Assembly (NCBI RefSeq): GCF_029266855.1
Contig: NZ_JAQSWB010000002.1
Coordinates: 1 to 64,000, forward strand
DNA from: Fluviicola sp.
GTDB lineage: Bacteria > Bacteroidota > Bacteroidia > Flavobacteriales_D > Crocinitomicaceae
Direction of reading: 5' to 3'
DNA: 64,000 nt
Position numbers and translations under genes: made by a program. Positions 2 to 56,569 of this stretch are shown one piece after another (positions within the stretch are counted from its first letter, which is position 1; every line of letters begins with the position of its first letter). The notes below the pieces were generated by a model. It had not been told where the DNA came from and did no database searches. It worked only from the letters and a program-made list of their open reading frames with translations.

Positions 2-79
2 GTAGAAGTTCCGGGAGTTGGTGAGCGTATTGTGAAGTTCTTCGGAGGAATGCGCCAGGTCGATCTTGAAACAATTTAA
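2..79 (+). CDS. C-terminal fragment of an unidentified protein
   Basis: The last 25 codons of a gene that begins before the window; frame 2 runs open from the edge to TAA at 77-79. The peptide contains PGVGERIVKFFG, which resembles a helix-hairpin-helix PGVG turn as found in DNA-binding proteins, but it is too short to name a family. It is followed by a 227-base gap holding the greA promoter. Confidence 0.5.
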   Translation, partial: VEVPGVGERIVKFFGGMRQVDLETI

Positions 80-210
80 TTCATTCTGTAAGTAAAACGA
101 ATATTAATGAGACAATGCCTCCTCGTTTTTCAGCTATTCATTTAGTTGATTAGTCTGAATATAAAACTTCAGTTTGGCAGTAAAAACAAGTTGAAATAAG
201 AGAAATTGGC

Positions 211-241
211 TTGTTTCGATAAATAAAAAAACATATATTTG
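211..241 (+). promoter_or_regulatory. Bacteroidota-type promoter of greA
   Basis: TTG at 211-213, a 20-base spacer, then TATATTTG at 234-241. This fits the Bacteroidota vegetative consensus (TTG at -33, TAnnTTTG at -7). It predicts a start of transcription near 246 and a leader of about 60 bases before greA. Confidence 0.65.
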
Positions 242-250
242 TTGCAACAG

Positions 251-269
251 GAGAGTCCATTGGGCTCTC
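251..269 (+). promoter_or_regulatory. hairpin in the greA leader
   Basis: GAGAGTCC and GGGCTCTC pair across a 3-base loop with one G-T wobble, right after the predicted transcription start. The following TTGTTGTTATTT is only a weak T tract, so it could be an mRNA-stabilising 5' hairpin or a leaky attenuator; the sequence does not decide. Confidence 0.4.
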
Positions 270-306
270 TTGTTGTTATTTATAGCTTACAACAGAAGAA
301 AGAATT

Positions 307-780
307 ATGTCAGATTTCGCATATTATACAGAAGAAGGCCTGAAGAAGTTGAAGGATGAATTGCACGAAATGAAAACAGTGCAACGTCCCCGTATATCGG
401 AACAAATTGCAGAAGCAAGAGACAAAGGAGATTTGTCTGAAAATGCCGAATATGATGCAGCAAAGGAAGCGCAGGGATTGTTAGAGATGAAAATTGCTAA
501 GATGGAAGAACTGGTTTCCAAAGCAAGAATCATCGATAATACATTGATTGATAACTCAAAGGTTTTCATATTGTCACGTGTTAAGATCAAAAACGTGAAT
601 AACAATATGGAAATGGAGTACACCTTGGTTGCTGAAAGTGAGGCAGATCTGAAGGAGAAAAAAATCTCTGTAGATTCACCGATCGGAAGAGGACTTCTTG
701 GAAAAAAAGTAGGAGACATTGCAGACGTACAAACACCAAACGGAATTATGAAGTTTGAGGTAATGGATATCGCAAGATAA
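307..780 (+). CDS. greA: transcription elongation factor GreA
   Basis: Rescues backtracked RNA polymerase by entering the secondary channel and stimulating cleavage of the 3' end of the nascent RNA. At 157 residues it is the usual length. The N-terminal coiled coil (about residues 8-75) carries the acidic tip region DKGDLSENAEY, which holds the Asp and Glu that act at the polymerase active site. The C-terminal FKBP-like domain (about 80-157) shows SPIGRGLLGKKVGD. The ATG at 307 follows a purine-rich AGAAGAAAGAA stretch. The stop codon overlaps the next start (TAATG), so greA and the HIT gene are translationally coupled. A TTG-N20-TATATTTG promoter and a leader hairpin lie upstream. Confidence 0.97.
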   Translation: MSDFAYYTEEGLKKLKDELHEMKTVQRPRISEQIAEARDKGDLSENAEYDAAKEAQGLLEMKIAKMEELVSKARIIDNTLIDNSKVFILSRVKIKNVNNNMEMEYTLVAESEADLKEKKISVDSPIGRGLLGKKVGDIADVQTPNGIMKFEVMDIAR

Positions 781-1169
781 TGGCTACGATCTTTTCAAAA
801 ATCATATCAGGAGAAATACCTTGTCATAAGATCGCCGAGAATGATGATTTTCTGGCATTTCTGGACATCATGCCTTTGAGAAAAGGACATGCTTTGGTGA
901 TTCCTAAGAAGGAAACGGACTATATATTTGATATGGATGACGCAGACCTCGCAGCAATGATGATCTTTGCCAAATCCGTGTCACATAAAATAAAAAAGGT
1001 TTTTCCATGCCGGAAAATAGGTGTTACCGTAATCGGTTTGGAAGTTCCACATGCACATATTCATTTAATTCCGATTAATGGAATTGCCGATATGAATTTT
1101 TCACAGGAGAAATTGAGTTTAAGCCAGGAAGAATTGGCTCAAATTGCACAGGATATTCAAAATGCATAG
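780..1169 (+). CDS. HIT-family nucleotide hydrolase
   Basis: Histidine-triad protein of 129 residues, the normal size for the Hint/PKCI branch, which hydrolyses adenosine phosphoramidates or related nucleotide conjugates in the cytoplasm. The triad is plain: HAHIHLIP near residues 91-98, with the middle histidine the likely nucleophile. The N-terminal FSKIISGEIPCHKI and the central LRKGHALVIPK are also typical of the family. It overlaps greA by one base and the next gene by 8 bases, so the three are probably one transcript. The substrate cannot be told from sequence. Confidence 0.92.
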   Translation: MATIFSKIISGEIPCHKIAENDDFLAFLDIMPLRKGHALVIPKKETDYIFDMDDADLAAMMIFAKSVSHKIKKVFPCRKIGVTVIGLEVPHAHIHLIPINGIADMNFSQEKLSLSQEELAQIAQDIQNA

Positions 1170-1953
1170 AAGAAGTTTAGGCAGAACAAATAGTTTTTTA
1201 TTTGTTCTGCTACTGATTGTATGTTTTTCATGCTCGGAATCTAAAAAAACAACACATGTACTTTTCGTAGGTAACAGTTATACCTATCGGAATAACATGC
1301 CCAAAATTTTCGAGGAGATTGCTGAATCGAAAGGTGAAGAAGTCAGCGTGTCTCACATAACCCGCGGAAAGTATACCTTTTATCTTCAATCGAAAAGGAA
1401 AAAATTATACCGCGCTTTACATAACCAGGATTGGGATGTAATTGTCCTTCAGGGATCTTCCAGGGATATGCTGCGGGATTCTGCACGATTCAAAAAAAAG
1501 ACCTATCCTGCCTTGGATAAAATGATGGAGATGATCCAAAAAAATCAAAAGGATGCTAAGGTGTATTTCTATATGACCTGGCCATACCGGAAAGGTGATC
1601 CGAAAACAAAGCGTTTCTCAGACCCGGATTCTATGCTGAGTGCAGTTGCTGCTGGATATAACAACCTGCGAAACAGGTACAAAGTCCCGGTTATCCCGGT
1701 AGGAAAAGTTTGGAGAAATTATGCGATTGCTTATCCGGAAGCAGATTTGTACATGAAGGATAATTCACATCCATCGTACGAAGGTTCTTATTTGGTTGCT
1801 TGTACAATGTATTCCGCTATATATGGAAAGAGCCCGGTAGGAGCAAGCAGTCTTACAATCCTCGATCAGGATGAATATGCGAGGATCCAGAAATTTATCA
1901 CTAAGCAATACCGCACACCTGAGTTCCAGTTTTATCTGAAAGACTCCATTTAA
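1162..1953 (+). CDS. SGNH-hydrolase-like lipoprotein (DUF4886-like)
   Basis: A 263-residue predicted lipoprotein. The ATG at 1162 is preferred over an in-frame TTG at 1144 because it places a basic start and hydrophobic stretch directly before a lipobox (CFSC, then SES). The mature part shows SGNH-type landmarks: GNSYTYRNNMPK near the N-terminus (block I serine) and DNSHPSYEGSY near the C-terminus (Asp/His pair). This suggests an envelope esterase or acetyl-hydrolase. It is clearly paralogous to the convergent gene ending at 2249, sharing the NNMPKIFE, VYFYMTW and PVIPVG blocks, but it has no PKD domain. It overlaps the HIT gene by 8 bases. The substrate is unknown; it is probably a glycan or cell-wall acyl group (inference). 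Confidence 0.8.
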   Translation: MHRRSLGRTNSFLFVLLLIVCFSCSESKKTTHVLFVGNSYTYRNNMPKIFEEIAESKGEEVSVSHITRGKYTFYLQSKRKKLYRALHNQDWDVIVLQGSSRDMLRDSARFKKKTYPALDKMMEMIQKNQKDAKVYFYMTWPYRKGDPKTKRFSDPDSMLSAVAAGYNNLRNRYKVPVIPVGKVWRNYAIAYPEADLYMKDNSHPSYEGSYLVACTMYSAIYGKSPVGASSLTILDQDEYARIQKFITKQYRTPEFQFYLKDSI

Positions 1954-2056
1954 ATAGGTTCGTGTTCTGAAATCTCATTCGGAATAATCTATGAGTCCGG
2001 TACAATCCAACGTATTGGAGAATATTCCAATCTATAAAGTGAAAAATAAGTTAGGT

Positions 2057-2195
2057 AGAGTATGGATAGAGTATGGATAGAGTATGGATAGAGTATGGAT
2101 AAAGCATAGATACCCCACCTTGAGACGCAGCGACTGCAAAGCCTGCTACTGTCACCTTGAGACGTAGCGACTGTAAAGTCTGCTACTGTCACCTT
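2057..2195 (+). repeat. composite dispersed repeat, copy 1
   Basis: Four exact 11-base units (AGAGTATGGAT) occupy 2057-2100, and a degenerate fifth is at 2101-2111. Two tandem copies of a 45-base module follow (2109-2154 and 2152-2195), with the core CACCTTGAGACG-AGCGACTG-AAAG-CTGCTACTGTCA. The same architecture recurs at 45989-46083. It lies between convergent genes and fills most of the 295-base gap at 1954-2248. No credible gene lies in it. Confidence 0.8.
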
Positions 2196-2248
2196 TTTTA
2201 TCATACGAAGTTTGCAGAACGAAGTATGATTGTATTAATGACTAATAG

Positions 2249-3274
2249 CTATTTATTCGCTCTTTTTATTTTGTTTGAAACGGTTACCCTTTTCTTCAAT
2301 GTGAAGTTGTTGCAGTTCTGTCTCATGTGTAAAGTCACGGTGTAAGTTCCTGAGGTTTTATAATAATGTTTCGGATTTTTCTTTGTTGAAGTCACTCCAT
2401 CTCCGAAATCCCAATAATACTCACCTTTGTCGTTTGTTTCATTGGTGAACTGTGCAGCCAGCCATGTTTCCTTGACTCTGAAATCAAGTACAGGAGTTTC
2501 CTTTATATTGAAAACACGCGTTTGATTCAATTTGTATAAATTCAGGTTTTTCAGAACCACGTTAGCTGCTGCCTGTTCAATTATTTTCCAATAGGTGCTG
2601 TCAACTCTTTTTGGAGCTGTTCCTCCAACAGGTGATTCCTTGAAAATAGATGTAAATGCAGTACAAGCGGCTGTAAAACTTCCCAAAGCATTGGGATGGT
2701 AGCGGTCGGTGAAATAAAGGTCAATATCCGGATGCATTTCGCGAATATTTTTCCAAACCATGCCCACCGGAATGACCGGGTAATGCAATGAGTCACTCAT
2801 CAGCATGTATCCGTTCCAGATCCGTTGCTGCATTTTTTGATACGTGTCATTTGCTTCTTGCTCAGGATATCCTTTTTCGTATCCCCAGGTCATATAGAAA
2901 TAGACCTGTGCACAGGGACTTGTTTTAAGTACGCTGTCAATAAGGATTTTTGCGTAGGGTATTGATTCTTTCAGTACGATGGAACTGTCTTCTGCAAACT
3001 CCCTGGAGAATCCCTGGATCAGGACATAATCCCATTTCCGGCTCTTCATTTTGGCATAGGTACTCGGACGTTCACTATGTGCCTTTAAGGTACTTCCACT
3101 TACAGCAATCGAGTCCGCATAAACATTTTTCCCTTTTGATTTGGCAAGATGCTCAAAAATTTTAGGCATGTTGTTCATGTGTGTGAAACTATTCCCGATA
3201 AAAAGAACATTCGTAGGCTGCTGGCCAAAACTAAGACTGGTGATTAAGGAAAAAAATAAGGCTAACCTATTCAT
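2249..3274 (-). CDS. secreted SGNH-hydrolase-like protein with C-terminal PKD domain
   Basis: A 341-residue exported protein (signal peptide about residues 1-17, ending SLSFGQ). The catalytic region, about 20-235, has GNSFTHMNNMPK near the start and DRYHPNALGSF near the end, giving the Ser and Asp/His pair of SGNH esterases. Residues about 260-335 form a PKD fold, with YYWDFGDGVTSTKKNP and YKTSGTYTVTLH. PKD domains often bind or present polysaccharide at the cell surface. The start overlaps the stop of the upstream acyltransferase by 4 bases (ATGA), so the two are translationally coupled. A joint role in adding, moving or removing acyl groups on an envelope glycan is a reasonable inference. 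It is a paralog of the lipoprotein at 1162. Confidence 0.8.
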   Translation of the reverse strand: MNRLALFFSLITSLSFGQQPTNVLFIGNSFTHMNNMPKIFEHLAKSKGKNVYADSIAVSGSTLKAHSERPSTYAKMKSRKWDYVLIQGFSREFAEDSSIVLKESIPYAKILIDSVLKTSPCAQVYFYMTWGYEKGYPEQEANDTYQKMQQRIWNGYMLMSDSLHYPVIPVGMVWKNIREMHPDIDLYFTDRYHPNALGSFTAACTAFTSIFKESPVGGTAPKRVDSTYWKIIEQAAANVVLKNLNLYKLNQTRVFNIKETPVLDFRVKETWLAAQFTNETNDKGEYYWDFGDGVTSTKKNPKHYYKTSGTYTVTLHMRQNCNNFTLKKRVTVSNKIKRANK

Positions 3275-4527
3275 TTACGAAGCTTTTTTCGTTTAGGATA
3301 GAAAAATCCAAAGACTTTATAATACAACTCGGTTAATGGCTCGATATACTTCACCATTATAACAAAAACAGTAATAAAGAACGCGGATATTGAAATTGCA
3401 ATCCACGGATTAAACTGTCGATGATACCAATCTGACGGATCAAGTCCTATGCCAATAATTCCACCGTAAAGAATAATTACGTGAACGATATAAACAGGGA
3501 AGGTTGTTTGCCCCATTTTCAGGAACAAAGGTGCGTTGATTTTAAAGTTTGCATCGATGAGCATTAAGGATCCCAAAAGCATAGCAACCTGGCCCATTCG
3601 CGCAAAACCTGTAGTATTGTTCTCAAAACACCCGTGAGCTGTCAATCCGATCCAGTTGGTAAACTGATCTATTTCATGGAAAAGTGATTGCGATGCAATA
3701 TTGAAAAATAAACCGATCACCAGGAATGTGACTCCAAACCACCATTTACGCACATTCTTTTCGTATTGTCTAATGATTGCACCGATCATTCCTCCCATCA
3801 GTACATATCCTGAATAACGAACAAAACTGAAGTCGGAGAATTCACCATAGATCATGTTCTGGATGAATTTCGGAGCTCCCTGCGGGATAAAAGCACTTGG
3901 ATCCTTAGCAGTTTTTATTCCCTCCATGACACCATAAAGCTTAATATGTTCCTTCAGGTATCCGTAAATGATAAAAATAACCAATGCTCCAATGAGGTAA
4001 TACAAATAAAGCGGGCCTCTTTTAATGATCTTGTAAATTCCGAAAATTAGTAGCAGGAAGAAAATCCCGAACCCGATTGATTGCAGTACATGAAAGGCCT
4101 GGAACCAATCCAGGTGATAAACGAATCCGCGTGTTCCGCCTTTGATCATATCTTCAAATCCGTAATACGTATCCCGGATAAATGTGATCAGGTCAAATTG
4201 GATCAGGTAACCCCAGAATAAGAGCATTCTAACCCGCCCGAATCCTTTCTTTACGCGTTCATTCTGGAAATAAGGTTCATCCGTTGAGCGGCTCAACAGA
4301 TAAATGAATACAACCCCGGTAACACAAAAGAACAGGGGAGAAGTAAGTCCATGCAGATTATGCCAAAAGCTAAAGAGCCAATTGTTATCATCCCGGTATT
4401 TATCAGCAAGTGCAGAACCGGTGAAATGGCCTTCAAGCATCATTAGAATGGCTATCGAACGAGCCATATCTATAAATTTCAATCTTGGACGAGCCGCCAA
4501 TGGCAACTCACCATTCTCTCCTGACAT
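3271..4527 (-). CDS. multipass membrane acyltransferase (DUF1624 / HGSNAT-like)
   Basis: A 418-residue integral membrane protein with about ten hydrophobic segments. The first begins RLKFIDMARSIAILMMLEGH, the hallmark of the DUF1624 group, related to heparan-alpha-glucosaminide N-acetyltransferase and to acyltransferase-3 proteins. These move an acetyl group across the membrane onto a sugar; the histidine of the EGH motif is the likely key residue. The basic C-terminal tail (KRKKLRK) faces the cytoplasm. Its stop overlaps the start of the SGNH-PKD gene by 4 bases, a pairing seen in other transmembrane acylation systems (established for PatA/PatB and AlgI/AlgJ). A TATCTTTG box lies 16 bases upstream of the start. 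The acceptor glycan is unknown. Confidence 0.78.
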   Translation of the reverse strand: MSGENGELPLAARPRLKFIDMARSIAILMMLEGHFTGSALADKYRDDNNWLFSFWHNLHGLTSPLFFCVTGVVFIYLLSRSTDEPYFQNERVKKGFGRVRMLLFWGYLIQFDLITFIRDTYYGFEDMIKGGTRGFVYHLDWFQAFHVLQSIGFGIFFLLLIFGIYKIIKRGPLYLYYLIGALVIFIIYGYLKEHIKLYGVMEGIKTAKDPSAFIPQGAPKFIQNMIYGEFSDFSFVRYSGYVLMGGMIGAIIRQYEKNVRKWWFGVTFLVIGLFFNIASQSLFHEIDQFTNWIGLTAHGCFENNTTGFARMGQVAMLLGSLMLIDANFKINAPLFLKMGQTTFPVYIVHVIILYGGIIGIGLDPSDWYHRQFNPWIAISISAFFITVFVIMVKYIEPLTELYYKVFGFFYPKRKKLRK

Positions 4528-48225: not shown

Positions 48226-50508
48226 ATGAAAACAAGAATTTTAAAAACAGTTGCTTTATGCGGCTTATTTGCACTTGGATTTATCTCAAAATCCAACGCA
48301 CAGGCTTTCTCGGAAGGTTTTAATGATATCACTTTACTTGCCGGGAATGGCTGGGTAATGACGAATGCGAGTGTCGCGGTTGGTTCAACTAACTGGTTCC
48401 AGGGAAATCCCGTAGGAGCCGGCGGACCGTTTGATGCTTACAATGGTGCTACAAATGCTTATATTGGTGCGAATTACAACAATACTGGAAGCACTGGAAC
48501 GATTAGCAACTGGTTGATGACTCCTAACCGTACATTTAGAAATGGCGATGTGATCACATTCTACACAAGAAAACCAGCTCCGGATTCATATGCTGACAGG
48601 CTGGAAGTACGTTTAAGTACGAATGGAGCAAGCACGAATGTTGGTACAGGAACTGCAGTAGGAGACTACACCACATTATTAATGAGTGTCAATCCATCAT
48701 TGGTATTAGGCGTTTATCCAACAACCTGGACATTATATACCATTACTATTTCAGGCTTGCCGGCGCCTACTTCGGGTCGTATAGCATTCAGATACTTTGT
48801 AACCGGTGCAGGTCTTAACGGAAGTAATTCGGATTACATCGGAATCGACCAGGTTGATTACACACCGTACGTTTGCCCTGCTTTCACAATGACAGCAGCC
48901 GGTGCTTTAACCACCGGAACCGCAGGGGCAGCATATTCAACAACGTTGACACAAACGGGAGCTCTTGGAGCACCAAGCTTTGCAGTTACTGCAGGGGCTT
49001 TGCCTCCGGGATTAACAATGAGTACAAGTGGAACAATCTCCGGAACACCAACTGCTACAGGTACATTTAACTTTACTTCGACTGTAAGTGATGCAAGCGG
49101 ATGCTCCGGTTCATCAAGTTATTCAATTACGGTTGTTTGTCCTGCAAACCCAATTACCTTTGCAACCGCGCCGGCTTTATGTGATAATAGCGGGACGTAT
49201 ACTTTGGTACAAGGTTCACCTGCAGGTGGAACATATTCCGGAACAGGAGTTACAGGAAATAATTTTAATCCTGCTTCGGGAACACAAACCATTACTTATG
49301 ACTATACTGATGCATATGGATGTGCATTTAATTCCAATTACACCATTACTGTAAATACTGCACCGACTGTAACACAAAGCGCGATTTCACCGATATGTGA
49401 TAATTCGGGAACACTTGCATTGACGGGCGCAAGCCCTGCAGGCGGAACTTACAGTGGAACAGGAGTTACAGGAAGTGATTTTGATCCTGCAGCCGGAACA
49501 CAGATGGTAACCTACACCTATACGGATGCGAATAACTGTACCAATCAAGCTACTACAACGATTATAGTAAATACTGCTCCAACGGTTAGTCAAAGTGCTA
49601 TTTCAGCAGTGTGTAGCAACGCGGGACCATTGGCATTGTCGGGCGGTAGCCCTGCAGGTGGGACCTACAGTGGAACAGGAGTTACAGGAAGTGATTTTGA
49701 TCCTACAGCCGGAACACAAACTGTGACTTACACTTACACGGATGCAAACAACTGTTCGAGTGAAGCTACTGCAACTATTACGGTGAATGCTGCTCCAACA
49801 GTTACACAAAGTGCTATTTCAGCAGTTTGTAATAATTCAGCAGAATTTGCATTAACAGGCGGAAGTCCTGCAGGCGGAACCTACAGTGGAACAGGAGTTA
49901 CTGCAAGCGGTGATTTTGACCCTTCGTCAGGAACACAGACTGTAACTTATACGTATACCGATGCAAACAACTGTACAAGTACCGCTTCAACTATGATCAC
50001 GGTAAATACAGCACCAACAGTTGCCTTTACTTCTCCCGTTGCAACAATGTGTATCAACCATGCGCCATTGACACTTTCAGGCGGAAGCCCTGCAGGTGGA
50101 ACTTATTCCGGAAATGGAGTGAGCGGAGGAGTTTTAAATCCTGCTACAGCTGGTGCCGGTGATCACGTGATTACTTATTCTTACACAGATGCAAATAGCT
50201 GTGAAGGTGAAGCAACATTTTCTATCAATGTAGATCCTTGTTTGGGTCTTACAGAAAATGGAGAAGCATTCGGTTTGGAAATTTATCCGAACCCGACAAC
50301 CGGTAAATTTACAGCAAGTGTAACTTCCGGAGCTGACTTTTCAATTGTGAAAGTGTTAGATATCCAGGGGAAAGAGATTCAATTCGGATCTTCCAATACT
50401 TCCGCAACTGCTATCGATGTTGATTTCTCAAATCAGGTTCCGGGAATGTATTTTGTAAATGCTTTGGTTGACGGTCAGCCCTTTACTTTCCGAATTCAAA
50501 AACAATAA
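48226..50508 (+). CDS. T9SS-sorted surface adhesin with 72-residue repeats
   Basis: A 760-residue exported protein. Signal peptide about 1-25 (ALGFISKSNAQ). Residues about 27-210 resemble a choice-of-anchor/cleaved-adhesin jellyroll (EGFNDITLLAGNGWVM, GIDQVDYTPY). A putative Ig-like domain (about 220-300) is followed by five repeats of about 72 residues (about 303-670), each with SPAGGTYSGTGVTGSDFDP and YTYTDANNC. The last 80 residues are a T9SS type A sorting domain (LEIYPNPTTGKFTASVTS). The repeats are also similar at DNA level with a 216-base period. It ends at a strong terminator. Confidence 0.9.
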   Translation: MKTRILKTVALCGLFALGFISKSNAQAFSEGFNDITLLAGNGWVMTNASVAVGSTNWFQGNPVGAGGPFDAYNGATNAYIGANYNNTGSTGTISNWLMTPNRTFRNGDVITFYTRKPAPDSYADRLEVRLSTNGASTNVGTGTAVGDYTTLLMSVNPSLVLGVYPTTWTLYTITISGLPAPTSGRIAFRYFVTGAGLNGSNSDYIGIDQVDYTPYVCPAFTMTAAGALTTGTAGAAYSTTLTQTGALGAPSFAVTAGALPPGLTMSTSGTISGTPTATGTFNFTSTVSDASGCSGSSSYSITVVCPANPITFATAPALCDNSGTYTLVQGSPAGGTYSGTGVTGNNFNPASGTQTITYDYTDAYGCAFNSNYTITVNTAPTVTQSAISPICDNSGTLALTGASPAGGTYSGTGVTGSDFDPAAGTQMVTYTYTDANNCTNQATTTIIVNTAPTVSQSAISAVCSNAGPLALSGGSPAGGTYSGTGVTGSDFDPTAGTQTVTYTYTDANNCSSEATATITVNAAPTVTQSAISAVCNNSAEFALTGGSPAGGTYSGTGVTASGDFDPSSGTQTVTYTYTDANNCTSTASTMITVNTAPTVAFTSPVATMCINHAPLTLSGGSPAGGTYSGNGVSGGVLNPATAGAGDHVITYSYTDANSCEGEATFSINVDPCLGLTENGEAFGLEIYPNPTTGKFTASVTSGADFSIVKVLDIQGKEIQFGSSNTSATAIDVDFSNQVPGMYFVNALVDGQPFTFRIQKQ
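49351..50002 (+). repeat. in-frame 216-base tandem repeats within the adhesin gene
   Basis: Unit boundaries at GTAAATACTG-like sequence occur at 49351, 49567, 49783 and 50002, giving periods of 216, 216 and 219 bases. Units encode the 72-residue Ig-like repeats and share long identical runs such as GGAACAGGAGTTACAGGAAG. Confidence 0.85.
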
Positions 50509-53193: not shown

Positions 53194-53258
53194 GTTTTTT
53201 GATTCAGAGGTTGAGAATAATGATGTTTTTTCTTAACTTAAATAGAAATCATTATTCA

Positions 53259-53666
53259 ATGGAATTTAAAAACTACGAAAAAGAAGAAGCTCTGATGAAG
53301 ATCATTTACCAATGCGCATTGAAAGTTCATTCAGCTCTCGGTCCTGGATTATTAGAATCAGTTTATGAAACTTGTTTGTTATATGAACTAACGAAAAACG
53401 GAGTTGTAGCTGAAAGACAAAAAATGTTACCGATTAGCTATGACGGGATAATTATTGACTCCGGATTAAAATTGGATTTATTTGTAGAACAAGAAATAAT
53501 TGTCGAATTAAAACCGGTAGATATTTTATCTCCTGTTCATCAGGCCCAGATTTTGACCTATATGAAATTGGCAAAAAAAGAATTCGGTTATCTAATCAAT
53601 TTTAATGAAAAGCTTTTGCGAAACGGCGTAAGGCGTTTCACCTTAAAAGGGAATATTGATCAATAA
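53259..53666 (+). CDS. GxxExxY protein
   Basis: A 135-residue protein of the GxxExxY family. The naming motif is seen as GPGLLESVYETCL (about 31-43), with KLDLFVEQEIIVELKPVD and HQAQILTYMKLAKKEFGYLINF following. The fold is PD-(D/E)xK-like and the family is found widely as solitary, probably mobile or domesticated, cassettes; its activity is not firmly established. The ATG at 53259 (M-E-F-K-N-Y) is preferred to an earlier start that would add an unrelated stretch. The gene is bracketed by inverted repeats at 53168 and 53681. Confidence 0.88.
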   Translation: MEFKNYEKEEALMKIIYQCALKVHSALGPGLLESVYETCLLYELTKNGVVAERQKMLPISYDGIIIDSGLKLDLFVEQEIIVELKPVDILSPVHQAQILTYMKLAKKEFGYLINFNEKLLRNGVRRFTLKGNIDQ

Positions 53667-53739: not shown

Positions 53740-54546
53740 TTAATTCTCTGATTCTGACTCAAGAAAAGTAACCGTTTCTCTACTTGAACTGATCGGAGGC
53801 ATAAATCTATACTTGTTGTCAGTTTCCATCGTTATCAATCTTCCCAATCCCAAAGCTATGATCCGGTTGATGCTGTCGTTATTGGTGTTAAGGACATAAA
53901 AATCTCTCCAGGTTAAGGAATGAGCGTAGACTTTCCCGATTCCTTCAATATAACCTGTGTTTTCATTTGCATCCATTGCAAATTCGTGGTTTTCATTGGT
54001 GAAAAGGGAAACCCCAATTCCTTTGCCGTTTTCATCATCAATAAAGCCAATTGCAATCAATGAATCGTTATCGTTTCTTTTGAGAATTTCAGAAGCAGAT
54101 ACCGTATCGATTTGGTTTCTTCCGTTATTTGGCAGGTAATAATACCTGGTCTCTTCCTTTTCGGGTTTGACATCACTTTTCCCCGCAGAGAACCCCAGCA
54201 ATGCAATTCCAACCAGTGCTGGAAGTGCCTGAACAAAGAAAATCTTTTTATCCGCAGTCAATGCACCGTAAATTCCGGCAACAGATACACAGATCAAAAA
54301 GAAAAGACTGACATTGAACCGCCATTCCGGGTTACAGATAAAGAAAGTCCAGATCAATCCTGCTGCTAAAAAGCCGTTATACAATCCCTGATTGGCAGCA
54401 AGTGCCTTGGTTTTCGGGAATAAATCCTTTTCGAAATTTTTGAATGTCTTAGGGCCTTTGGTTGTCCAGGCAAACATTTCCAGCCACATCACATACAAGT
54501 GAAAAAGTGCTACGATCCCGATTACAATTTTGATAGTGATTTCCAT
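53740..54546 (-). CDS. DUF1304 membrane domain fused to a variable C-terminal domain, copy A
   Basis: A 268-residue protein. Residues about 1-120 are a DUF1304 four-helix membrane domain (IVALFHLYVMWLEMFAWTTK, NQGLYNGFLAAGLIW). From about residue 127 to the end is a soluble, charged domain not found in usual DUF1304 proteins (about 120 residues), for example YYYLPNNGRNQIDTVSASEI. The membrane half is nearly identical in DNA and protein to copy B (54917-55720), while the tail differs almost entirely. Function unknown; the layout suggests an outer sensing or binding domain. Confidence 0.78.
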   Translation of the reverse strand: MEITIKIVIGIVALFHLYVMWLEMFAWTTKGPKTFKNFEKDLFPKTKALAANQGLYNGFLAAGLIWTFFICNPEWRFNVSLFFLICVSVAGIYGALTADKKIFFVQALPALVGIALLGFSAGKSDVKPEKEETRYYYLPNNGRNQIDTVSASEILKRNDNDSLIAIGFIDDENGKGIGVSLFTNENHEFAMDANENTGYIEGIGKVYAHSLTWRDFYVLNTNNDSINRIIALGLGRLITMETDNKYRFMPPISSSRETVTFLESESEN

Positions 54547-54604
54547 AGTTCTAAAATTTAATACCGAATTTTCAAATCTCAGCTCCTAATACGTAAGAGT
54601 TTGA

Positions 54605-54898
54605 TTACATTGGGTTTTCGACCCCAGTCATATCAAAAATAGGATAGAAAAACAGGAGTATAAACAAAATAAATCCAATCATTAAAATACTCAAAATTCT
54701 ATTCTTGGAAAATAGCCAGATAATGGTTGGTATGCTTAACGAAGCATAAGCAATTGAATGCATAATGGATTTGTGGTTCAATAACATATATTCACCCATT
54801 GATCCTCTCATGTTATTGTAGCTTTTTAATTCAAGATACAGACAAAAAAAGCAAAATGTAATGAACATTAATTTGATAATGATAAGCCTGTATTTCAT
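54605..54898 (-). CDS. small membrane protein of unknown function
   Basis: A 97-residue protein with three hydrophobic segments (about 7-23, 45-62, 68-92) and polar ends. It sits between the two DUF1304 paralogs on the same strand, 18 bases after copy B and 58 bases before copy A. It is probably expressed with them. No family recognised. Confidence 0.65.
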   Translation of the reverse strand: MKYRLIIIKLMFITFCFFCLYLELKSYNNMRGSMGEYMLLNHKSIMHSIAYASLSIPTIIWLFSKNRILSILMIGFILFILLFFYPIFDMTGVENPM

Positions 54899-54916
54899 TC
54901 GTTTTTACTGAATTGA

Positions 54917-55720
54917 TTAGTATAAACCTTGATGCTGAATAATTTTCTCCACGACCTGCTTTTTATGCTTTAATATATTTACCAAACTCAATGAAATAAG
55001 TGAGTTAACTTTTTCGTCTTTGGATTTTAGCAGAACATAATTATCCATTCGTGGGTTTTCAGAATAAATTACTCCCCAATTATTTAAGGTTACTTTAAAA
55101 GCCTCTTGATTATTGACTGCGTATTGTGAAGGTCCATAGAAGTTTAGCTGGTTGGATTTTCCGAGTTCATCCATAAAATGAGTTGAATAGAACAAAGAAT
55201 CTGAAAAATCTTCCTTATTGTTAGTGTAAAGTGGAAATGGGTCGCTAAGTTTTCTTCCCTTTGAATCAATTAAATAAATCTCTGTTTTATCTAGTTTGGG
55301 TTCATTAATAATAGAGGTTTTTTCCTTTTTTATGTCACATTTCTCATCACATTTCCATTGGGAAAACACCAATAATCCGATCCCAACCAAAGCAGGTAAA
55401 GCCTGAACAAAAAAGATTTTTTTATCTGCTGTCAATGCGCCGTAAATTCCGGCAACAGATACACAGATCAAAAAGAAAAGACTGACATTGAACCGCCATT
55501 CCGGGTTACAGATAAAGAAGGTCCAGATTAATCCTGCCGCTAAAAAGCCGTTATACAATCCCTGGTTGGCAGCAAGTGACTTGGTTTTCGGGAATAAATC
55601 CTTTTCGAAATTTTTGAATGTCTTAGGGCCTTTGGTTGTCCAGGCAAACATTTCCAGCCACATCACATATAAGTGAAAAAGTGCTACGATTCCGATTACA
55701 ATTTTGATAGTGATTTCCAT
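54917..55720 (-). CDS. DUF1304 membrane domain fused to a variable C-terminal domain, copy B
   Basis: A 267-residue paralog of copy A. The DUF1304 domain (about 1-115) is almost the same as copy A, including the sequence around the start codon, and differs at only a few positions. The tail from about residue 118 is unrelated over most of its length (for example KLDKTEIYLIDSKGRKLSD), but a YVLL...SLISLSLVNIL segment weakly matches YVLN...IIALGLGRLI in copy A. This indicates old homology of the tails with recent homogenisation of the membrane half. Confidence 0.78.
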   Translation of the reverse strand: MEITIKIVIGIVALFHLYVMWLEMFAWTTKGPKTFKNFEKDLFPKTKSLAANQGLYNGFLAAGLIWTFFICNPEWRFNVSLFFLICVSVAGIYGALTADKKIFFVQALPALVGIGLLVFSQWKCDEKCDIKKEKTSIINEPKLDKTEIYLIDSKGRKLSDPFPLYTNNKEDFSDSLFYSTHFMDELGKSNQLNFYGPSQYAVNNQEAFKVTLNNWGVIYSENPRMDNYVLLKSKDEKVNSLISLSLVNILKHKKQVVEKIIQHQGLY

Positions 55721-55732
55721 AGTTTCGAAAGT

Positions 55733-56569
55733 TTAAATTCCCCCTTCGGAGGGGGATAAAGGGGGAGGATTTGATGTTTTTACTTTTGTTCCAACAATAG
55801 AATACATCATCGGGATGAAGTTTCCGAGATGTTTGATCCGGTATTTTCCGGGGGCGAATTCTTCAGTATGTGAAAAACAATTGTAGTTGGAGAAATCATA
55901 TTCCTGCAGATCCTGAAGTTGAATCCCCTGTTTGAGCAAACTGGTTATTACTTCACTCATGCCATGGTTCCAGCTTACGGAAGTTGTTTTGATATCAGCT
56001 TCCCTGTCGGCATATGTTCCGCTTGCTGTTTCTACGATCGGATCGGATTTAAAATAACGGTATCCTATTTTTTGAAAATCGTCATCAAACATCCACACTA
56101 CCGGATGAAATTCCACAAAGACAAAGGTTCCGTCCGGTTTTAAAAAGTGGTTTATAACTGAGGCCCATTTGTCCAGGTCCGGCAGCCAGCCAATTGTCCC
56201 GTAGGAAGTGAAAACAATATCAAATTGGCCTTCCAGGTGTTGCGGCAAGTCATAAAGGTCACAACAAACAAACGAAGCATCGGCCCCGGTGAGTTTGGCA
56301 AGTTCACGTGCCTTATCGATCGCTTTATCTGAAAGATCTGCTCCGACAGTGCTGGCACCCATCCGGGCCAGTGAAATGGTGTCTTGTCCGAAATGACATT
56401 GTAAATGTAAAATGCGCTTTCCTGCTACATTTCCAAGTAAGGCGAGTTCTGTTTCCTGAAGCGAACTTTTCCCGGCTAAAAAGCCCTGTAAATCATAAAA
56501 TTCGGATTCCACATGCGGGTCAACCCGCTGGTTCCATTGTTCTTTATTTATTTCCTTATAGTTCTCCAT
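55733..56569 (-). CDS. class I SAM-dependent methyltransferase
   Basis: A 278-residue small-molecule-type methyltransferase. Motif I is RILHLQCHFGQDTISLARMG (about 54-73), with VGADLSDKAIDKA, DIVFTSYGTIGWL and DGTFVFVEFHPVVWMF following. The substrate is unknown; the pattern resembles bacterial homologs of UbiE-like or THUMP-free methyltransferases. The ATG at 56569 is preferred over a TTG at 56584. The last codons are encoded by the palindromic repeat at 55737-55773 (tail NPPPLSPSEGGI), so the C-terminus appears to have been extended by repeat insertion. Downstream is DUF1304 copy B (12 bases). Confidence 0.88.
   Translation of the reverse strand: MENYKEINKEQWNQRVDPHVESEFYDLQGFLAGKSSLQETELALLGNVAGKRILHLQCHFGQDTISLARMGASTVGADLSDKAIDKARELAKLTGADASFVCCDLYDLPQHLEGQFDIVFTSYGTIGWLPDLDKWASVINHFLKPDGTFVFVEFHPVVWMFDDDFQKIGYRYFKSDPIVETASGTYADREADIKTTSVSWNHGMSEVITSLLKQGIQLQDLQEYDFSNYNCFSHTEEFAPGKYRIKHLGNFIPMMYSIVGTKVKTSNPPPLSPSEGGI
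55737..55773. repeat. palindromic repeat forming the methyltransferase C-terminus
   Basis: TCCCCCTTCGGAGGGGGATA is a palindromic core followed by AAGGGGGAGG. It lies across the stop codon region of the methyltransferase gene. GC-rich palindromes of the CCCCCTTCGGAGGGGG kind recur in many Bacteroidota genomes. Confidence 0.7.

Follow-up and report, generated by a model that had tools for sequence, protein, structure and literature searches.

Evidence for gene conversion in the membrane half of a tandem pair of DUF1304 fusion genes in Fluviicola

Two neighboring genes of a Fluviicola sp. genome, here termed A and B, encode proteins that are nearly identical up to about residue 118 and divergent beyond. 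They lie in a stretch of 64,000 nucleotides (RefSeq assembly GCF_029266855.1, contig NZ_JAQSWB010000002.1, positions 1 to 64,000 of the forward strand; "the window"), whose genome is designated G000. In the explanation that we regard as probable, A and B are an old tandem pair of fusion genes, the membrane half of which was overwritten by gene conversion while the tails were kept distinct.

Results

The identity of genes A and B breaks off at the end of the membrane half

Both proteins match the membrane family DUF1304 (PF06993), with 138.1 bits for A and 138.2 bits for B (curated Pfam cut-off 26.9), and the match spans residues 11-117 in each. They are the sole two DUF1304 matches of the window genome. 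The locus has the following parts:

53740 to 54546, minus strand: gene A (268 aa), DUF1304 membrane domain plus tail of type A
54917 to 55720, minus strand: gene B (267 aa), DUF1304 membrane domain plus tail of type B
54247 to 54546, minus strand: gene A, homogenised tract at the 5' end, roughly 300 bases long (best split point at base 320)
55421 to 55720, minus strand: gene B, homogenised tract at the 5' end, roughly 300 bases long
54193 to 54546, minus strand: DUF1304 half of A, codons 1-118, with four predicted transmembrane helices
55367 to 55720, minus strand: DUF1304 half of B, codons 1-118
53740 to 54192, minus strand: tail A, homologous in sequence to stand-alone lipoproteins, probably periplasmic
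54917 to 55366, minus strand: tail B, remote homolog of tail A and the lipoproteins; six strands and a long C-terminal helix predicted
54605 to 54898, minus strand: 97-aa hydrophobic open frame between A and B
55733 to 56569, minus strand: methyltransferase gene (Methyltransf_25, 52 bits), separated by 12 bases from the start codon of B

Over codons 1-98 the two genes share 96.6% of their bases. Aligned without gaps from the start codon, they differ at 13 positions within the first 315 bases, which is the length the original prediction had given for the near-identical stretch. The first 354 bases are best split at base 320, which separates 13/320 differences from 12/34, a contrast matched by 0/2000 permutations. 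The drop in identity is sharp, as had been anticipated, and the decay is not gradual. DNA identity declines earlier than protein identity, falling already over codons 99-118, where 75% of the bases agree and 12/18 codons for the same residue are spelled differently. The tails had been described as mostly unrelated. They do differ past about residue 118, but a local protein alignment gives a score of 75, with 54 as the top of 1000 shuffles; by this measure they are remotely alike, a resemblance that is weak but real.

The small membrane gene expected between A and B corresponds to the 97-aa open frame, which has two strongly hydrophobic stretches. The closest match to this frame among the other 13 genomes of the genus has an E value of 0.048, and no such frame stands between A and B in G001, G007 and G008. 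The gap between A and B is 370 bases in the window and 28-46 bases in these three genomes.

Tail and membrane half follow conflicting trees

A tree of the tails from eight Fluviicola-type genomes separates seven A tails from five B tails with support 100/100. Forcing the two tails of the window together costs 194 log units and is rejected (p 1e-39). Since the A and B tails thus form two ortholog groups across genomes, the duplication is old. The tree of the membrane half conflicts with this arrangement: the two window copies are sisters (100/99), and a single clade of the seven A rows is rejected (AU p 2.7e-6). Two of the nine branches of this tree are starred, so that the direction and number of conversion events are not readable from it.

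The same conflict appears at synonymous sites. Over codons 1-98, dS between A and B of the window genome is 0.16, compared with 1.07-1.81 between its A copy and the orthologs and 1.53-1.79 between its B copy and the orthologs. The other paralog pairs give 0.45 (G008), 0.62 (G001) and 0.81 (G007). When codons for the same residue are scored for different spelling, the paralogs reach 0.10 in G000, 0.18 in G008, 0.25 in G001 and 0.33 in G007, while 56/62 between-genome pairs lie at 0.35 or above. The six pairs below 0.35 are all among G001, G006 and G008; G001_A, for instance, is nearer to G008_A (0.16) than to G001_B (0.25), and the G007 value is close to those of orthologs. Paralogs being closer than orthologs in the membrane half is therefore clear in G000, holds in G001 and G008 against some orthologs only, and is weak in G007, the comparison resting on one genome per species.

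Homogenisation of synonymous sites with a sharp tract end, i.e. a significant split point, was detected in 3/4 genomes with both genes. In addition to the window genome, these are G001 (base 198; 17/198 versus 44/156 differences) and G008 (base 194; 8/194 versus 42/160), both with 0/2000 permutations, while G007 has no significant split point (235/2000 permutations). The homogenised tract ends at about base 300-320 in G000 and about base 195 in G001 and G008. As the ends differ between lineages, there must be at least two tracts of different length, both reaching the start codon; G001 and G008 may share one conversion event. In G000 the edge of the tract agrees only approximately with that of the domain, and in G001 and G008 it falls within the membrane half, so that it follows no domain rule. 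Runs of agreement are longer than expected in 4/4 paralog pairs (p 0.003 or less), but 3/62 between-genome pairs exceed expectation as well (p 0.002-0.008), which makes this test weak on its own.

Gene conversion of the membrane half in the window genome, as put forward in the original prediction, is well supported by these sequence comparisons, because the trees of the two halves conflict, low synonymous divergence is confined to the 5' tract and the tract ends are lineage-specific. Other histories have to be weighed against it. An independent recent duplication in each genome would likewise yield similar membrane halves within one genome. We hold it to be highly improbable, given that the A tails of seven genomes and the B tails of five are separate clades (100/100) and that the order B-then-A is identical in 4/4 genomes with both genes; the tail tree refutes it unless tails were exchanged whole between species. 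Hardly any credence is left for a history free of recombination, in which strong purifying selection on the protein alone kept the membrane half alike. Its dN is indeed low in every comparison (0.004-0.16), but the tract in G000 is alike at synonymous sites too (dS 0.16, against more than 1 to the orthologs), and codons 99-118 of the same genes are synonymously divergent. Selection without recombination is thus refuted for G000, and the split in differences speaks against it in G001 and G008. A recent copy of the whole gene, followed by return of the old tail through recombination or transfer, would lead to the same outcome as membrane-half conversion, and transfer between species of the genus is conceivable. 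However, it requires an additional step, and both steps would have had to recur in at least two lineages whose tract ends differ; we judge it very unlikely. Conversion of the membrane half is the reading that we retain.

The tails are constrained and related to stand-alone lipoproteins

The orthologous tails are 57-66% (A) and 65-74% (B) identical to the window copy. Their dN/dS is 0.06-0.21 in the 17/31 ortholog pairs for which it could be estimated, the remaining 14/31 being synonymously saturated. Only two pairs have a dS below 1, both between G001 and G008, with dN/dS of 0.20 (A) and 0.19 (B). The proposed diversification of the outer part is not borne out by these ratios, which give no sign of diversifying selection in the estimable pairs, nor by the two old ortholog groups. 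Compared with the membrane half, the tail evolves more rapidly, yet it remains constrained.

Searches with a profile of A tails detect stand-alone genes in G011, G045, G140 and G022 (E 2.7e-17 to 2.0e-8), and later profiles add relatives in G240 (2.6e-19) and G609 (6.6e-21). These six proteins comprise 139-166 aa, and 6/6 have a short hydrophobic start ending in a lipobox-like Cys, the start codons in G022 and G240 having been chosen by us. A hydrophobic signal that ends in Cys is typical of lipoproteins. A and B are without such an N-terminal signal, and the DUF1304 domain occupies its place. A profile of four lipoproteins alone recovers window tail A at 4.1e-16 and tail B at 2.7e-8, and a profile of A tails plus lipoproteins, built without any B tail, finds 5/5 B tails (1.1e-9 to 2.5e-7). 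On the strength of these profile matches, the tail is homologous to uncatalogued stand-alone lipoproteins. Of a domain swap, the second option of the original prediction, the older step survives, in that the homology to lipoproteins argues for a real fusion; a recent swap between A and B is not needed, as tail type tracks gene position in 4/4 genomes with both genes. A clade uniting tails A and B of the fusions is absent from the best tree, yet has p 0.2, so that the tree would be compatible with one fusion or with two.

The richest profile, containing both tail types, matches 16/240 genomes of the family at E of 0.01 or below, 13 of them strongly, and 5/335 genomes of the phylum sample, where the window genome alone matches strongly. 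Few genomes of these samples thus have the tail family, and its distribution is patchy. Weak hits were obtained in G031, G019, G184, G992, G927, G552 and G685 (E 2e-4 to 7e-3). Searches of the tails against Pfam gave nothing above cut-off (best 0.021, then dCache_1 at 0.031, both for tail B), nor did those against NCBIfam; the best E values against PDB sequences were 0.27 and 0.19.

In G240 (locus L218), with the lipoprotein start taken at base 1388, the preceding RHS-core gene ends at 1413; further along are two more RHS-core pieces, with 28.6 bits (below cut-off) and 45.1 bits. Three successive RHS-core ends, each with its own tip, are present at positions 19-4419 of this locus (G240 contig 156); a small lipoprotein-like gene follows the first and the second of them, and the one behind the first is the tail relative.

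The linker at residues 119-140 of the A and B proteins (12 genes) contains 0-4 cysteines, mostly in CxxxC spacing, e.g. CDVKCEEKCEVKKE in G007_A; G000_A, G006_A, G001_B and G008_B have none.

Predicted structure and topology suggest a periplasmic tail

A structure model of A has four long helices of high confidence (residues 2-25, 47-69, 73-97 and 101-123), with the tail predicted poorly and at low confidence. Tail B modeled alone reaches a pLDDT of 78 and a pTM of 0.71, with six strands and a long helix predicted. Neither model had a Foldseek match with an E value of 0.001 or lower. VIA aligned predicted tail B with EPDR1 (Z 6.1, rmsd 4.2, 90 aligned) and a LolA-like carrier (Z 5.6, rmsd 3.8, 89 aligned), both values lying below the stated background of 7-8. 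The membrane half was matched by VIA to helical bundles with Z up to 11.2 (an S23-family protein) and 10.3 (NACHO/TMEM35A), which may reflect a mere common arrangement of helices.

Lys plus Arg residues average 4.41 in loop 1, 0.72 in loop 2 and 1.97 in loop 3 of 29 DUF1304 rows. Loops rich in Lys and Arg lie inside according to the positive-inside rule, and the counts in loops 1 and 3 would thus place both ends of DUF1304 outside. The topology is therefore probably N-out/C-out with the tail in the periplasm, a location that is suggested by the homology of the tail to lipoproteins and agrees with the positive-inside counts.

In the samples searched, the fusion was found in part of the genus only

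Long DUF1304 genes are present in 8/14 genomes of the genus. The tandem B-then-A occurs in G000, G001, G007 and G008, which are all four genomes having both; A without B is found in G006, G012 and G013, and B without A in G002. The long form was not found in G003 (83% complete), G004, G005, G009, G010 and G011. Short DUF1304 genes are carried by 4/14 genomes (G002, G003, G004 and G011), with both forms in G002. The original prediction was to be refuted by the same extended tail in all DUF1304 homologs of the clade, whereas long and short forms both occur in the genus.

Outside the genus, no long DUF1304 gene was detected in the samples searched: 15/15 places above cut-off have open frames of 117-187 codons. 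Among 69 other relatives (L063-L131), the frame closes at most 16 codons past the end of the match in 68, and the remaining one (L126) runs off its contig; L132, with a match of 22 residues only, was excluded from this length count. A tblastn search of 12 tails and three lipoproteins against L063-L132 gave 0 hits at E 0.01. The DUF1304 relatives found comprise about 120 aa, a length taken as seen in these relatives and not a formal criterion of the family, and end where the tail of A and B starts. At 268 and 267 aa, A and B thus share the membrane half with the family (138 bits) but not its length. The DUF1304-tail fusion is an unusual architecture, as the original prediction had held, and was not encountered outside these genomes in any collection searched.

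In 8/8 Fluviicola loci, the gene immediately upstream of the DUF1304 gene or genes is a methyltransferase gene, an assignment based on Pfam runs for two of them. Downstream of the DUF1304 gene or genes, aroQ on the opposite strand and then xerD follow in 7/8 loci; in G007, aroQ is 30 kb distant from gene A. Adjacent to gene A, this interval of about 30 kb (L036 1-1230; G007:C16 63-94 kb) carries a frame that by eye resembles an integrase gene, which would fit the insertion of a mobile element beside the pair. A fatty acid hydroxylase-type gene, tested with PF04116 for G002, lies upstream of the methyltransferase gene in 6/8 loci and is absent from this place in the window and G007. Between aroQ and gene A, the window has a PDDEXK_3 (PF13366) gene at 53199-53666, plus strand; a frame resembling it occupies the same place in G012 (L038 3188-3595) and was not seen in the other six loci listed. 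Further away, at 48226-50508 on the plus strand of the window, a 760-aa protein is encoded that has a signal-like start, repeated units of the SPAGGTYSGTGVTG type and a sorting-like C-terminal end (by eye).

A neighborhood common to DUF1304 genes did not emerge from a tblastn survey with eight query proteins, including Ohr-like, OhrR-like and methyltransferase proteins, over 93 loci, the flanks of which were as short as 1.5 kb in some cases: it returned Ohr-type neighbors in one G002 locus and the methyltransferase in five Fluviicola loci only. In that locus (L041 872-3797), the short DUF1304 gene stands behind two genes that we take from their looks to be OhrR-like and Ohr-like; close relatives of these were found in 1/93 loci, the G002 locus itself.

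Discussion

A four-helix DUF1304 domain appears to have been fused, in one Fluviicola-type group, to a domain that elsewhere is exported as a lipoprotein. The fusion would be the derived state, in which the membrane domain took over anchoring from the lipid signal. The fusion gene exists as an old tandem, B then A, located right behind the methyltransferase gene. Its two tails separated earlier than the species, and they look conserved by purifying selection, as far as saturated synonymous sites allow this to be judged. We propose that ectopic homologous recombination at the 5' end overwrote the membrane half from copy to copy and was kept out of the tails, which would be too different to recombine. 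As the weakest step, both copies may use the same type of anchor, possibly with a shared partner, to present two distinct binding domains in the periplasm. Judged from sequence, a shared anchor with two periplasmic binding domains is the most likely molecular function of A and B.

Alternatively, A and B could be a membrane-anchored immunity pair against polymorphic toxins acting in the periplasm, with the tails as two immunity domains. In G240, the gene for the tail relative and the end of an RHS-core gene (TIGR03696, 37.7 bits, cut-off 32.5) with an HETQH motif in its tip overlap, which may be read as a hint of an immunity origin, not as proof. The contig with the G022 relative also carries, at a distance of about 9 kb, an SMI1/KNR4 (SUKH-1) gene (PF09346, 5e-9). 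PMC3482391 describes the SMI1/KNR4 superfamily as dominant among immunity proteins and Imm65 as one lipoprotein immunity family, tied to a Bacteroidetes RHS toxin, and tandem immunity genes are known to recombine according to PMC9484751. However, by eye no toxin gene was recognised within about 5 kb around the eight Fluviicola loci, A and B adjoin a methyltransferase gene upstream and not a toxin gene in 8/8 of these, 4/6 stand-alone relatives (G011, G045, G140 and G609) lie in plain-looking chromosomal surroundings (by eye), and the tails are conserved, not fast-changing. We therefore consider an immunity pair unlikely. Distinctly unlikely is the fuller scenario, in which the tails are an undescribed periplasmic immunity family, Fluviicola swapped the lipid anchor for DUF1304 and conversion keeps a common anchor, facing a common membrane partner, under two tails directed against two toxins. 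A shared anchor for two binding domains is the function that we favor.

Bacterial genes that evolve in concert have been well documented (PMC6053082). The nearest prokaryotic precedent found is mtrA-1/mtrA-2 of methanogens, which according to PMC4632066 are, like A and B, old tandem paralogs with one domain homogenised by recurrent conversion and the other different, gene fusion being involved. There, however, homogenisation affects the non-transmembrane domain and leaves the transmembrane part different, which is the reverse of A and B, and MtrA is an archaeal methanogenesis protein, not DUF1304. In mammalian TLR1/TLR6, PMC2077338 reports tandem paralogs in which independent conversions homogenised a region containing the transmembrane segment and the N-terminal part follows orthology, a pattern explained by its authors as co-evolution with common binding partners. 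In these animal immune receptors, which are unlike A and B in kind, it is the C-terminal region that was converted, over almost the same stretch in each species, whereas the tract ends of A and B differ. The immunity clusters of Firmicutes covered by PMC9484751 include esaG and tipC, tandem paralogs whose conserved blocks permit recombination as in A and B, and tsaI, which resembles A and B in that only one stretch is conserved, about 75 residues at the 5' end that span the first two transmembrane domains, with variable sequence behind it. For tsaI the same paper reports little evidence of recombination, unlike A and B; these three families have up to a dozen or more copies per genome, are polymorphic within species and involve no DUF1304. 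The literature searched on DUF1304 and domain-limited conversion yielded no earlier report of the A/B pair, which is no proof of absence. The pair is a new instance of a recognised but uncommon process, domain-limited conversion.

A and B are a compact example from bacteria: concerted evolution acts on one half of the tandem pair but not on the other, and the ends of the tracts can be located to within a few codons in several species. They link DUF1304, a functionally uncharacterised membrane family, with a domain that is probably periplasmic, and their tails point to an uncatalogued lipoprotein family, one member of which stands beside an RHS gene.
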